Source: Janthinobacterium sp.
GTDB lineage: Bacteria > Pseudomonadota > Gammaproteobacteria > Burkholderiales > Chitinibacteraceae
Direction of reading: 5' to 3'
Length of the DNA: 64,000 nucleotides
NCBI GenBank assembly: GCA_025360045.1
Contig: JANYCY010000070.1
Location: 1-64,000, forward strand
Shown here: positions 53,810-61,433 of the stretch, in pieces
Layout: each line of letters starts with the position of its first letter
Position numbering within the stretch: position 1 is the first letter of the stretch
Notes under the pieces: model-generated
What the model saw: the letters and a program-made list of their open reading frames with translations, nothing else
Told to the model about the DNA's origin: nothing
The model's database searches: none
Position numbers and translations under genes: made by a program

Positions 53810-54155
53810 TTCAAACCATTCCTATGGGGGATCAACGCGCGTACACGCATCTTAATAAATAGGGGATAAAGCCAGCTCATCAACAGGCAAGGTCAGTATG
53901 ACCTGCTTGGCAGACCTACGAAAGATCTAACAAGCACAAGCGCCCAGTACGACTTGCCAACAAAGTCGGTAAGTTTAGCGCACAACAGGGCGCAAATCCA
54001 AACAGAATTATTAACCAGCGACAGAAGCGACCCAAACACAGCCACCATCAGGCGCGAGCAGGGCAAAATAGTAATGGCAAAGCATAAAAAAACAAGCCAC
54101 ACACAATCACCCTCTTCAAGCCACGAAAAACACACCCACAAAAATAGCAGGCATG
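53810..54155. other. Intergenic region before tig
   Basis: About 345 bp between the tRNA-Leu terminator and tig. No gene is supported; the frames that cross it lack ribosome sites and run into the tRNA or its terminator. The tig promoter must be here, but I cannot pick it with confidence. Confidence 0.5.
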
Positions 54156-54192
54156 AAAAAAGCCGCAAGAGCATGACTCTTGCGGCTTTTTT
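54156..54192 (-). terminator. Terminator after tRNA-Leu
   Basis: AAAAAAGCCGCAAGAG (54156-54171) and CTCTTGCGGCTTTTTT (54177-54192) form a perfect 16-bp stem with a 5-nt loop and a T tail. It lies 10 bp past the tRNA. Confidence 0.95.
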
Positions 54193-54202
54193 CAGAATAT
54201 TT

Positions 54203-54287
54203 GGTGGGGGATAAGAGACTCGAACTCTTACACCTTACGGCGCTGGAACCTAAATCCAGTGCGTCTACCAATTCCGCCAACCCCCCA
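54203..54287 (-). tRNA. tRNA-Leu (anticodon TAG)
   Basis: 85 nt, a class II tRNA with a long variable arm. The anticodon stem-loop is CTGGA-TTTAGGT-TCCAG, giving TAG. GGCGGAATTGGTAGACGC is the D-arm region, AGTTCGAGTCT the T loop, and CCA is encoded. Acceptor GGGGGGT pairs with ATCCCCC, with one G-T pair. Confidence 0.95.
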
Positions 54288-54521
54288 CTTCACTTCGCTG
54301 CGTTTGCTTGTGCACCGAAGGAAGACCCGCATTCTATGTGAAGAACTCCACCTTGCCAAGCGTTTTTTTAAATTATTTTGAAATACTTTTACAAAGCCGC
54401 ATCATAAACACGATTTTGTTTAATATATCAGTAAGACAATCGCAATCTACACAGCCCACAAAAAGTTTATGTCATACTCCGCACAGATTTTTACCCCAAC
54501 CACTCTAACGTCACTCCGCCC

Positions 54522-55583
54522 GTGAACGATCCTATATATACACTCCTACGCATCCTTCCTGCTGGTGATCTTGCTACGACAGAAGTCCGCTGGTTTGCTG
54601 AGCAAAAATCTGGCTCCGCAATATTAAGCGAACTCCCTCGTGCACAGCGCATCGAGCTTATCGTCCCTGCGGCACGCTCTAATATTTATATTGCGGAGCT
54701 ACCAAGGCAATCCATGGCAAGGCGGCAGAAGCTGCTGCCGCATTTATTAGAGGATCGCCTGCTCAGCCCTGCGGCTATGCTTCATTTTGGCCTTAAAGAT
54801 AACAGCAGCAAAATTATTGCCGTAGAGCGTAAATGGCTAGAACATTGCCTGCGCCTACTGACTGAACACCAAATCACCCCCGCAGCCGTCTGGAGTTTGT
54901 ACGACTTTTTACCTGATGGCAGTGACTGGTGTGTCGCCAAAGACCAGCAAACCTGCCTTGTGCGGACACCTGAGGGGCAATATAGCCAGTTTGAAGACGC
55001 CCATATTCTTGACTCATTGATTGGCGATGCGCCACGTGAAGATTTAATCTTGGCCAATTTAATTCAAAACACCGAGCCTGGCACCAATTTGCTCCAGGGT
55101 GATTTTGCGCAGCGCAGCCAGCAATGGTCTATCGACTGGAAAACACTGCAAACACCCGCACTACTATTAAGTGCTATTTTTGCGGTGGTCTTGCTCGGGC
55201 AAGTGGGAGATTGGTGGCAATTACGCAGCACCAAGCAAGCTTTGCAACGCGAAATGCGCCAAACCTATGCTGCAGCCTTTCCTGGCGAACCGGTCTTTGA
55301 CCCTGTCTTACAATTGCAAAGCAAGCTACGCGAACGAGGCGGCCTGCGCTCCTCAAGCAATGGCGACAGCCTAGATTTACTCCTGCAAGTCGCCAATATT
55401 GCGGGCAATGGCCTGCAATTAGAGCAATTGGAATACGCCAATGGCTTGCTCAGTATGCAAATGCCTGACTCCCAAGCCAGCAGCTTGCAAGCTCAACTCA
55501 AAGGAGCTGGCCTGTCCGCAGAAACACAAGCAGCAGCAACCGGGCATATGAAAGTATTGATTCGCCCCCAAGCCGTAAAATGA
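54522..55583 (+). CDS. gspL: GspL, type II secretion inner-membrane protein
   Basis: 353 residues starting with a GTG. An actin-like cytoplasmic domain covers the first 220 residues (ELIVPAARSNIYIAELPRQS, RRQKLLPHLLEDRLLSP). One membrane segment follows at about 222-240 (PALLLSAIFAVVLLGQVGDW), then a periplasmic ferredoxin-like domain. GspL recruits the GspE ATPase to GspM. The rest of the gsp operon is not in the window. Confidence 0.9.
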   Translation: MNDPIYTLLRILPAGDLATTEVRWFAEQKSGSAILSELPRAQRIELIVPAARSNIYIAELPRQSMARRQKLLPHLLEDRLLSPAAMLHFGLKDNSSKIIAVERKWLEHCLRLLTEHQITPAAVWSLYDFLPDGSDWCVAKDQQTCLVRTPEGQYSQFEDAHILDSLIGDAPREDLILANLIQNTEPGTNLLQGDFAQRSQQWSIDWKTLQTPALLLSAIFAVVLLGQVGDWWQLRSTKQALQREMRQTYAAAFPGEPVFDPVLQLQSKLRERGGLRSSSNGDSLDLLLQVANIAGNGLQLEQLEYANGLLSMQMPDSQASSLQAQLKGAGLSAETQAAATGHMKVLIRPQAVK

Positions 55584-55595
55584 GTCCTAACACTA

Positions 55596-56063
55596 ATGAA
55601 TAAATTGAAAGAATTTTGGCAACAGCGCCAGCCCAGAGAACAGCTCTACCTCAGCGTTTGCGGGGCTTTTGCTGCTTTTGCCATACTTTATGCAGGTATT
55701 TGGCAGCCCATCAGCGATTCTCGCGCCCAGCTAAGCAAGCAAGTGCCTCAAATGCAGCTGCAACTCGCCGAATTACAAAGGCAACTCGCCCAAGTTAAAG
55801 CGACACCGGCGGGGCCAAGCCGCAATGGTGATTTGCGGGCTGCGGTGCAAGCTAGCTTGGATGCGAAAGGCGCGAGTGCCGATATTCAGGCGCTCTCTGC
55901 CGACAAACTGCAAATTAAAATTGCCCAAATCCGCTTTGCCGACGCCCTACCTTTACTTGCCGCCCTGCGCAGCGAAACAGGTTCGCGCATTAGCGCACTG
56001 AACGTCAGCGGAGCGGCACACGACGGCCTAGTCCAACTTACGGCTTTGGTAGAACGCCAATGA
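55596..56063 (+). CDS. gspM: GspM, type II secretion inner-membrane protein
   Basis: 155 residues. A short cytoplasmic start (FWQQRQPREQLYLSV) is followed by one membrane segment (VCGAFAAFAILYAGIW, about residues 21-36), a coiled-coil-like stretch and a small periplasmic domain. It begins 12 bp after gspL. The last ~25 codons (SALNVSGAAHDGLVQLTALV) are duplicated just downstream at 56090-56167. Confidence 0.88.
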   Translation: MNKLKEFWQQRQPREQLYLSVCGAFAAFAILYAGIWQPISDSRAQLSKQVPQMQLQLAELQRQLAQVKATPAGPSRNGDLRAAVQASLDAKGASADIQALSADKLQIKIAQIRFADALPLLAALRSETGSRISALNVSGAAHDGLVQLTALVERQ

Positions 56064-56167
56064 GTCAATTAGCCGACGCCGCCCTGAGCAGCAAAACGGG
56101 TTTGCACATCAGCGGAGCGGGGCATAACAGCCTCGTTCACCTTACGGCTTTGGTAGAACGCCAATGA
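56060..56167 (+). CDS. 35-residue ORF made from a duplicated gspM 3' end
   Basis: This ORF begins MSQLADAALSSKTGLHISGA and ends HLTALVERQ, ending exactly like GspM. Its DNA repeats the last ~75 bp of gspM, including TTACGGCTTTGGTAGAACGC, with scattered base changes and small deletions. Its ATG overlaps the gspM stop (ATGA), and its stop overlaps the gspN start (ATGA). It could be a relic of a tandem duplication, or be translated as a small coupled peptide. It has no membrane segment. Confidence 0.45.
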   Translation: MSQLADAALSSKTGLHISGAGHNSLVHLTALVERQ

Positions 56168-56883
56168 AACAATTTATAGTCCACCGTAGTAAATTCCTTA
56201 TCCCGCTGCTGATCTTATTTTTGATTCTGCAATTTCCTGCCTCATTTATTTTGAAATTTGTTCCCGCGCCGGTGCAATTAGGCGGAGTGAGCGGCACCAT
56301 TTGGTCGGGGCGGCTCACCCCGCTTGGCATCAATGGGCAGCAGCTTCTAGATGAAGTGCGCTGGCAATGGCAACCCATACGGCTGTTCGCAGGGCAATTG
56401 GTTTGGCAACTAGAAACCCGCTATGGTCAACAAGCAGGTCAGGCGCGCTTAGCGCTTGGGGTAGGCGGCAATCGGCTAGAGGCGATTAAACTCACCCTAC
56501 CTGCTGCACCCTTATTTGCTTTAGATAAAAAACTCAGCCCGTTTCAGCTTAGCGGGCAATTAGAACTTGAAGCACTGACCATCAGCGCCAAGCAATCCAG
56601 TGAAATATCGCTACTTTGGCAAAACGCTAGCTCGCTCGTCACGCCGCAAGCCAACCCTTTTGGCAGCTATCTGATCAAGCTGCAACCCAATTTAGATTGG
56701 CGCATCGCGCCGCAAGGCAGCGCGCTATTGGTGATTAATGGCCAAGGAAAAATCGATCCTAAGCGTGGCCCCCAAGGCTCACTCCTACTAAAAGCTGCCA
56801 GCGACAAAGAAAGCCTCTTTGCCCCACTACTCGATCGCATGCCGTTAAACGGCGATCAGCGTGAACTCAAGCTAGGCAGCTAA
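56164..56883 (+). CDS. gspN: GspN, type II secretion system protein N
   Basis: 239 residues with an N-terminal membrane segment at about 11-33 (FLIPLLILFLILQFPASFIL). Then come VQLGGVSGTIWSGRLTPLG and QQLLDEVRWQWQPIRLFAGQL, both typical of GspN. The role of GspN in secretion is accessory and not present in all systems. It overlaps the duplicated ORF by four bases and is the last gene of this gsp group. Confidence 0.9.
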   Translation: MKQFIVHRSKFLIPLLILFLILQFPASFILKFVPAPVQLGGVSGTIWSGRLTPLGINGQQLLDEVRWQWQPIRLFAGQLVWQLETRYGQQAGQARLALGVGGNRLEAIKLTLPAAPLFALDKKLSPFQLSGQLELEALTISAKQSSEISLLWQNASSLVTPQANPFGSYLIKLQPNLDWRIAPQGSALLVINGQGKIDPKRGPQGSLLLKAASDKESLFAPLLDRMPLNGDQRELKLGS

Positions 56884-56917
56884 GCTACCACCCTATACTC
56901 CAGCAAATCGCCTATAG

Positions 56918-57283
<366 letters not shown>

Positions 57284-57361
57284 ACCAGAAACCGCTTACA
57301 AAATATTTCCAAAGCATATAAACACTTCAGAAATAAGGCAGTGCCTACTGCCGATCCAATG

Positions 57362-57390
57362 AAAAATGCGGCCGACTAGGCCGCATTTTT
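57362..57390. terminator. Terminator after glnB
   Basis: AAAAATGCGGCC and GGCCGCATTTTT form a 12-bp stem with a 5-nt loop, flanked by A and T runs. It can serve glnB and the convergent peptidase gene. Confidence 0.93.
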
Positions 57391-57452
57391 TACAACCATA
57401 AAACCGAGACATTCTTTATTTCAACCTTAACTCCACACCGTCTACCCGATGG

Positions 57453-58989
57453 CTATTGCGGCCGGTACGTTACTTTCAAGATGTAATCTGCTGCTGAATA
57501 GCCATTAAGCAGCAGATATACATCGCCATTTGCCGCTAGGCTCAGCTCGCACTTCTCCGTGCTATTCGGACCATCTGACTTGCAATCAAATACGGTTGTT
57601 GTGGGTGCGCTGCCTTTGCGTAAATACAAATCTGCATCGCCTGTGCCACTCAACACCGCACTAATACTCCCTCCTGCCCCAACTTTAAACGGGCCAAAGC
57701 TTTGTTTTTGACTTAAAGCCAGTTTACCGGAAAAGTTTTCTACTTTATCAACAGGGCCAGGGCCTGCGGGACCGTCGCTGCCTAATTCCACCATAAAGGC
57801 CAGCGCCATTTTAGAGAACTTCAGGGCATGCTGGGCTTGATTGCCACTATTGGCGTAGGTGTCGTTGGCCGTATGGATATAAGGGTTGTCTTGGGTAAAT
57901 GAGGATTCAAAAGGCATGGAGGCAAAATAGCCCTGTGCATTCCATGAGGCATGATCTGAGCAGGCATAGCCGCATTTATCGTAGCCAATTTTAATGCTCG
58001 GTAAATAGCTGGTGAGCAGATTGGCTACAAACTGGTTTTGCGCGTTATCGGTGTAATCAGTGTAAAGATAGATATCTTTATCCGAGCCTTTATAGTTGGT
58101 CATATCCAGCTGCATGACCCCCACTACATTGGTATTGGCCGCTTTAAAGCTTTTGGCAATTTCTTGCGAGCCGCGCAGGCCCACTTCTTCTGCCGCATAG
58201 CCCATTAATTTAAGCGTACGACGAGGCTTGTAGCCGCCTGCCACCATCACTCGCAAGACCTCGGTCATGCTGGCAATGCCGGATGCATCGTCATGCCCCT
58301 GGCGCGCGGGTACTTTCGCTCGTTCCTTGCCCATTAATGGAATCAAGGTGCCCGCCCAAAACCACCACCTCCCCCGCATTGTCTGTGCCTTTAATCGTTA
58401 AGATCACCGATTTTTGCGCCCAAGCTGCATGGGTAAATTGCTCAACCGTGATATCGCTACGCCCTGCAGCCATTTGCTGCCAGCGTGTCTTTAGCCAATT
58501 TGAAGCATTCACGCCATGGCTGGTGGTGTAATAACGATTAGTAAATGCAGATAAATCGTTAATGGTTTGCGCAATATTGCTGTCCTGCATTTGTGGCAGC
58601 AAAGCATTCACCACCGCTTGATTATCCAGCACATAGGATGGCCTTGCCGCCGCCAACAGGCTGGCAGATGGCTGTAGGGCTTGGCGCCCAGCCGCTTCAC
58701 TCGCATGGAACATAAAGCCACCGCAGCGATGCAGCTCATGATGCACGGCGGCCGACAGACCCAGTAACTGCTGCTCATCCACCTCGACTAAATGCACACG
58801 CTCCGCCGCCAACAAGCCCTCCTGTGGCAACAGACTTTGGCTTTCTTTGGCGATTGTTTTAGGCGCTAATTTTTGTAATTGTGCATAGGCTGCATCGCCC
58901 AAGGTAATCCAGACTTTCTTAGGAGCGGCTTCTGCGGCAGAGGTGGCCAATATGCCGCATAGAAGCAGAGGGATCACTTTAAATTTCAT
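57453..58989 (-). pseudogene. M28 leucyl aminopeptidase (Vibrio type) with a frameshift
   Basis: Two overlapping frames together make one secreted M28 aminopeptidase. The first (58989 to about 58297) has a signal peptide, a propeptide and the start of the catalytic domain, ending VVVLGGHLDSINGQG, then TSESTRAPGA and a stop. The second continues HDDASGIASMTEVLRVM, includes AAEEVGLRGSQ and CGYACSDHASWN, then a PPC domain. Vibrio-type homologues read APGADDDASG at the join, so two bases appear lost near 58297. The metal-bridging Asp lies in this stretch. Start at 58989 has AAGGA. It could be a true pseudogene or a sequence error. Confidence 0.85.
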
Positions 58990-59020
58990 CGCAATATCCT
59001 TTGAATGATTTTTAAAAATC

Positions 59021-59053
59021 AAAAAAAGCCCTGCATACCTTCGTAGCAGGGCT
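59021..59053 (-). terminator. Terminator after the M4 protease gene
   Basis: AGCCCTGC (59027-59034) and GCAGGGCT (59046-59053) form a perfect stem. The A run 59021-59027 makes a T tail on the minus strand. It isolates the M28 gene from the M4 gene. Confidence 0.88.

Positions 59054-59094: not shown

Positions 59095-61433
<2,339 letters not shown>

Follow-up and report, generated by a model that had tools for sequence, protein, structure and literature searches.

Between gspM and gspN of an Iodobacter-type bacterium, within the small operon gspL-gspM-gspN, lies a second and diverged copy of the gspM 3′ end that forms a short reading frame of its own, joined by an ATGA to the gene on either side (at 56060 to gspM, at 56164 to gspN). 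Comparison of the sequence with that of related genomes shows a tandem duplication as its source. As a result gspM stop and gspN start stand 100 nt apart in the window – by which we mean the whole stretch of 64,000 nucleotides that was analysed. The explanation that we favour, albeit with modest confidence, is that the duplication is ancestral, that its peptide is inconsequential, and that ribosomes pass through the open frame on their way from gspM to gspN.

Table 1. Operon genes and parts of the duplication, in coordinates of the window
Feature	Position	Strand	Description
gspL	54522-55583	+	First operon gene; Pfam T2SSL 4e-14, GspL_C 1.9e-8; NCBIfam TIGR01709 4.2e-42
gspM	55596-56063	+	155 codons; stop TGA within ATGA; Pfam T2SSM 2.9e-31
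Source copy	55938-56063	+	gspM codons 115 to stop; from alignments of four copies and outgroups, and repeat finder
27-nt identical pair, member 1	56037-56063	+	gspM tail, with weak ribosome-binding site of the next ATG
Duplicate ORF	56060-56167	+	ATG, 35 codons, TGA; 49-codon counterpart in G008 (L003, L032)
Copy head	56060-56071	+	Putative; like gspN codons 1-4 (counterpart 56164-56175), from junction strings
First 15-nt in-frame deletion site	56077-56078	+	gspM codons 117-121 (hand alignment); GCC direct repeats at ends
Second 15-nt in-frame deletion site	56110-56111	+	gspM codons 133-137 (hand alignment); AGCG direct repeats at ends
27-nt identical pair, member 2	56141-56167	+	Upstream of and into gspN ATG
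gspN	56164-56883	+	239 codons, intact; Pfam T2SSN 4.1e-20; dN/dS 0.065 against G008

The operon and the repeated end of gspM

The repeat is not a chance resemblance: it comprises two pieces (72 nt at 83% identity and 37 nt at 84%), the longer with a blastn E of 1.4e-17; the last 27 nt are identical in both copies; and it is the sole exact direct repeat of at least 18 nt, at a spacing of 30–600 nt, in the 64 kb. The original prediction – that the end of gspM is repeated to give a 35-codon ORF with ATGA at both ends – is borne out by the ORF list and the repeat finder, and the alignments agree that the copy has suffered in-frame deletions and substitutions and holds no premature stop. The extent needed revision: a duplication there is, but its start had been put at 55970, and the part of gspM that is repeated begins at about 55938. 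Likewise, the copy does derive from the gspM end, but its first four codons resemble the start of gspN, so that the duplicated unit would span the boundary between the two genes.

The copy is not a GspM. Everything before gspM codon 115 is missing, the N-terminal membrane part included, and no signal or membrane segment is visible by eye in the window copy. The 35-aa product matches no Pfam or NCBIfam family at E up to 1, and a search of the bacterium's own genome finds one T2SSM match, gspM itself.

Between the window and its sister species (genome G008) dN/dS amounts to 0.034 for gspM, 0.065 for gspN and 0.106 for gspL; gspN is under purifying selection. The three GspG-family matches in the bacterium's own genome all lie on other contigs, so gspLMN is separate from at least those pseudopilin-type genes. 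A PDB sequence search with gspM gave no match below E 0.18. At 56945, 3′ of gspN, is a gene that, from its translation, we take to be GlnB/GlnK-like. Two peptidase loci are found on the minus strand nearby. At 57453-58379 and 58291-59022 overlapping ORFs in different frames jointly resemble one secreted M28 aminopeptidase, the downstream part matching Peptidase_M28 and PPC and the upstream part having a signal-like start and a GGHLDS stretch (with no Pfam match at E up to 0.001); the pair is probably split by a frameshift, be it real or a sequencing error. At 59095-60906, near gspLMN, stands an M4 protease of the thermolysin type that looks complete and carries FTP, PepSY and a PPC tail. Peptidases of the M28-like and M4-like kinds are often exported by type II secretion.

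Origin and distribution of the copy

The genus comparison comprised nine genomes, one per species, with that of the window (G000) included. Two of the nine carry the copy, G000 and G008; in the other seven it is absent, and gspM and gspN are joined directly by one ATGA, an overlap that is kept in 7/7. The two carriers are sisters with support 1.000 in a tree built on gspM codons 1–114 plus gspN, and over the same sequence they are 93.2% identical, other genomes reaching at most 76.5%. The two matches returned for G001 are two halves of one junction and not a second copy. A wider search took in 61 genomes, of which 39 matched; the 30 loci are the window, eight from the genus and 21 from other genera, and counts for other genera rest on these 21 loci read, with ten weaker matches in other genera outside them. 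An ATG at -1 is found in 17 of the 21 and other candidate starts (GTG or ATG at -1, +2 or +4) in four; a repeat of the gspM tail is found in none, save for a 17-nt match (E 0.007) in L018. With GspM as query four named loci were found: three labelled Iodobacter (L033, L034, L035) and one from a Lake Pavin MAG, L032, which contains the tested 3,000-base stretch of the G008 locus (L003) in identical form.

The G008 copy, of 49 codons, differs from the window copy by three indels (12, 15 and 15 nt), and neither copy contains a stop. Frame-breaking indels in the copies of relatives, which the original prediction held to speak against it, were sought in this sole other carrier – one of the eight further genus genomes – and none was found. 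Near the start of the G008 copy (L003/L032) 12 extra bases resemble the bases just before them (GCCAATGAAAC / GCCAATAAATC), and this insert may be a second, smaller tandem duplication across the same ATGA.

From codon 115 to the end both copies parallel gspM codon by codon, the window copy being without two five-codon blocks (117–121 and 133–137 by hand alignment) and the G008 copy having four extra codons near its start. Before codon 115 both read CAA TT(T/A), preceded by A(A/G)T: the window copy begins ATG AGT CAA TTA GCC, and that of G008 has ...AAT CAA TTT GCC. Set beside gspN (ATG AAA CAA TTT) and gspM (CAA ATC CGC TTT GCC), these heads fit the start of gspN better than the gspM codons before 115. 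The copy head at 56060-56071 would on this evidence mark the 3′ breakpoint. The simplest history would be a tandem duplication that took place before the window species and G008 diverged: its unit, about 134 bp long, would begin at gspM codon 115, run across the ATGA overlap and end at gspN codon 4, the two sides of the break having a TTT in common. The exact breakpoints and the single origin of the duplication are what we infer from these comparisons.

Other histories fit less well. A unit of 158 bp that starts at AAACTGC of gspM also matches the opening bases of the G008 copy, but it requires more later indels; like the 134-bp unit, it has a remainder of 2 when divided by 3. Separate duplications in each species came into consideration since four sites group the copies within species and one across species; they are disfavoured, given the same fusion point, the T shared before CAATT, and the position of the G008 copy, which branches outside g1, w1 and w2 in the tree of copies. 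What is left would be accounted for by conversion of the window copy from gspM. That the window lineage underwent a second, more recent duplication is less likely, since both copies have one and the same fusion point.

The newborn copy would have been an ORF of about 45 codons, running from the old gspN ATG to the new ATGA with gspN. Since 134 leaves a remainder of 2 on division by 3, and 2 is the frame offset of gspN at the ATGA, an ORF with ATGA at both ends follows; both junctions arise automatically when an overlap is duplicated, and the double ATGA is for this reason no evidence of selection in itself. About one third of such duplications would yield an ORF of this kind, and the neat double overlap is a by-product.

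Change in the copy since the duplication

All later indels keep the frame: +12 in G008, −15 and −15 in the window. If each of the three has a chance of 1/3 of doing so, the combined chance is 0.037; that no new stop arises has a probability of about 0.74 for 16 substitutions and 0.86 for eight; the joint chance of a kept frame and no stop is 0.024, a value that rests on two genomes and three indels and ignores repeats that may set indel lengths. Such repeats are present. The ends of the two deletions in the window copy lie in short direct repeats (GCC; AGCG) whose members are spaced at exactly 15 nt, in codon phase. That their length preserves the frame may therefore be owed to the mutational process and not to selection, and the figure of 0.024 is weakened to that extent. 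Selection on the reading frame of the copy is suggestive only.

The original prediction proposed a comparison of synonymous with non-synonymous change, and the outcome is divided. Between the window and G008 copies there are 13 synonymous and nine non-synonymous differences (dN/dS 0.149, P 0.002–0.012 against neutrality), an excess of synonymous change. A hand count along the window branch gives nine non-synonymous changes, seven of them within the 31 codons that are shared and two in the copy head, and between five and seven synonymous changes, of which two cannot be placed. Against a neutral synonymous share of 0.28–0.33, values of 5 of 14 to 7 of 16 give P 0.13–0.53; these counts are near the neutral expectation, so the amino acids of the window copy drift more or less freely. 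In G008, copy and GspM differ over 41 codons by three non-synonymous and ten synonymous changes.

Gene conversion may account for part of the excess between species. Over the region that the copies share, four sites (codons 139, 143, 150 and 151) show a conversion pattern, pairing the copies within species, and one (codon 128) pairs them across; codon 148 lies within the 27 identical nt. Without codons 139, 148, 150 and 151 the synonymous share is 9 of 18 (P 0.04–0.11), and without codon 143 too it is 8 of 17 (P 0.07–0.17). The tree of copies, built on 31 codons only, places the G008 copy outside (g1,(w1,w2)) with support 0.913, w2 joining w1 with 0.885. In our reading, a single duplication predates the separation of the two species, and the 3′ part of the window copy would later have been converted from gspM. 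The 27-nt tract at 56037-56063 is a probable conversion tract, and the 3′ end of the copy seems at times to be rewritten from its parent gene.

Possible coupling of gspN and the meaning of the arrangement

According to the explanation that we favour, ribosomes finishing gspM would reinitiate at the ATG of the copy, read it, terminate on the ATG of gspN and reinitiate there; the copy would bridge a gap of 100 nt that otherwise tends to uncouple gspN. The peptide probably has no role in the window species: what would matter is an open frame divisible by three and the coupling signal at its end. The bridging step, and selection for it, we infer from the geometry of the junctions and from published coupling data. 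Both the gspM-copy and the copy-gspN junction have the structure of a coupled pair, namely a stop/start overlap, and the gspM-gspN overlap is kept in relatives that lack the copy.

Published effects of spacing cut both ways. In the sections of PMC10666635 that we draw upon, reinitiation in six native pairs (three from Haloferax, three from E. coli) was almost abolished at a spacing of about 20 nt, and at 38 nt it fell by 80–90% in two E. coli pairs and wholly in the third; the last 15 nt of the upstream gene were enough for coupling in two pairs tested. The same sections cite studies with coupling across 73 nt and across 150–850 nt, so a gap of 100 nt might be tolerated unread. From the excerpted text of PMC6728339 we take it that reinitiation efficiencies differ by pair and that the overlapping E. 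coli pair bioBF is not coupled, though its Shine-Dalgarno sequence is very weak; translational independence of overlapping genes is the subject of a further paper (PMC2997769). On balance, an unread insert of 100 nt should reduce the coupling of gspN, and a read one should pass the ribosome on. That coupling of gspN is kept, as first suggested, is accordingly plausible in view of the conserved overlap and these spacing effects; the double ATGA lends the suggestion no support as a sign of selection.

Features of the start sites are of little help in deciding the matter. Shine-Dalgarno pairing at both window junction ATGs is −3.7 kcal/mol, which is weak but not unusual among ten window starts (−2.9 to −8.8, with gspL at −3.6 and clpP also weak). 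The ATG that overlaps the gspM stop has −3.7 in the window and −1.9 in G008, where the gspN start has −3.7; in the copy-free genomes the values are −3.9 (G001, G004), −5.6 (G007) and −8.0 (G002, G003, G005, G006). Since gspL, clpP and two copy-free genomes are weak too, Shine-Dalgarno strength tells little and has no clear link to the copy. In loci L004–L010 the gspN ribosome-binding site lies within the last gspM codons, and its strength varies between species. Predicted accessibility of the start does not differ between genomes with the copy (0.46–0.48) and without it (0.39–0.64). A pattern scan of 54100-57500 gave three promoter-like sites against 3.3 in shuffles, and nine terminator-like sites against 5.2 (sd 2.4), none of either kind inside the copy.

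The main competitor, a possibility that we take seriously while judging it rather unlikely, is that the duplication was a harmless accident that is still open by chance, with gspN initiating well enough by itself or the level of GspN being unimportant. The luck required, roughly 1 in 40 if every one of the three indels is given a chance of 1/3, becomes less unusual if the in-phase direct repeats set the deletion lengths; the window branch, with its nine or so non-synonymous and five to seven synonymous changes, is near neutral (P 0.13–0.53), bioBF illustrates an overlapping pair that is not coupled (PMC6728339, in excerpt), and in Acinetobacter baumannii, according to the portion of PMC12802150 concerned, GspN is dispensable for soluble T2SS substrates. 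Yet three of three indels are in frame with no stop in either species, purifying selection on gspN persists, and elsewhere most of the loci read from the family retain the overlap. If coupling does operate, a different consequence presents itself: the added cistron could lose ribosomes at each reinitiation, and so be retained because it lowers GspN relative to GspM. This follows from any coupling efficiency below 1, such efficiencies varying by pair (PMC6728339, same excerpt), and the 27 nt that lead up to the ATGA and include it are identical at the two window start sites; but there is no sign that lower GspN is favoured and the copy is present in only two of nine genus genomes, and we think selection for dosage improbable.

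Still more improbable, to our minds, is a functional peptide, a small product of the copy that would imitate the tail of GspM or titrate it. The G008 copy remains near GspM (three non-synonymous against ten synonymous over 41 codons), and the 13 to nine ratio between the two species' copies (P 0.002–0.012) is what such a role might produce; but that excess shrinks to P 0.04–0.17 once the probable conversion sites are left out, the product has no Pfam or NCBIfam family match, and the window copy has lost ten of 41 gspM codons on a branch that is near neutral. By the established topology of the family the C-terminal domain of GspM is periplasmic, and the window peptide, with no signal or membrane segment that the eye can find, would be cytoplasmic. 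Lost codons, near-neutral change of the amino acids and the wrong compartment lead us to reject the mimic originally proposed as the main reading for the window, a ruling limited to the window copy. An assembly artefact is hardly credible: G000 is an assembly of 97 contigs, and 3,000 bases of the G008 locus recur unchanged in the MAG locus, but two genomes have the copy, at different lengths and with diverged sequences.

The arrangement has precedents. The MIRUs of mycobacteria (Supply et al. 1997), as outlined in part of a review (PMC12548453), are apparently mobile elements that insert at start codons and whose ORF is coupled at −4 nt, a coupling that probably spares the gene. The copy, too, is a short ORF with a −4 nt overlap to the downstream gene; unlike the repetitive MIRUs it is single and came from the adjoining gene by tandem duplication. 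Searches of the bacterium's own genome place the junction DNA at one position (E up to 0.001) and match the peptide only to itself and gspM (E up to 1): the copy would work like a MIRU but, not being dispersed, is no member. Overlaps of −4 nt are, together with those of −1, the commonest kind in the genomes surveyed in the relevant parts of PMC6728339 and PMC10666635, and both junctions here are of this type; unlike the usual ATGA termination-reinitiation pair, one ancestral overlap has become two, with a minicistron between them. As in ribosome-delivering upstream ORFs and bicistronic design (PMC12548453, again in part), the short ORF may do nothing except hand on the ribosome, but it is natural, sits inside an operon and derives from the upstream gene's own end. 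With gspM (T2SSM) it shares its derivation from codons 115–155, and it differs in being without the N-terminal membrane part and without a family match. Among the matches listed in open-licence PMC literature we found no paper on a duplicate gspM-gspN junction, which is no proof of absence.

A more general conjecture, which we advance as speculation and regard as doubtful, is that tandem duplication across an ATGA overlap could be a self-protecting route to new minicistrons: about one third would from the outset yield an ORF coupled to both neighbours, which the downstream gene's need for ribosomes would then keep open while it drifts and possibly becomes a new small gene. The 49-codon copy of G008, the more GspM-like of the two, would represent an earlier stage of this process than the window copy. 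If true, an operon would gain a translated 'free' reading frame. The finding is a small event, a variant of a known arrangement and a curiosity more than a novel system. For type II secretion the consequence is at most one of GspN dosage; recent work in Acinetobacter baumannii links GspN to lipoprotein export (PMC12802150, the portion cited above). The interest of the duplication lies in translational coupling, for which it is a natural experiment: in one lineage about 100 nt came to separate the members of an ATGA pair, and the inserted piece has stayed readable in two sister species through separate indels. It offers a simple local route to a MIRU-like arrangement for which no mobile element is needed, and a cheap test case for the question whether a reading frame that means nothing can be kept open by coupling alone.
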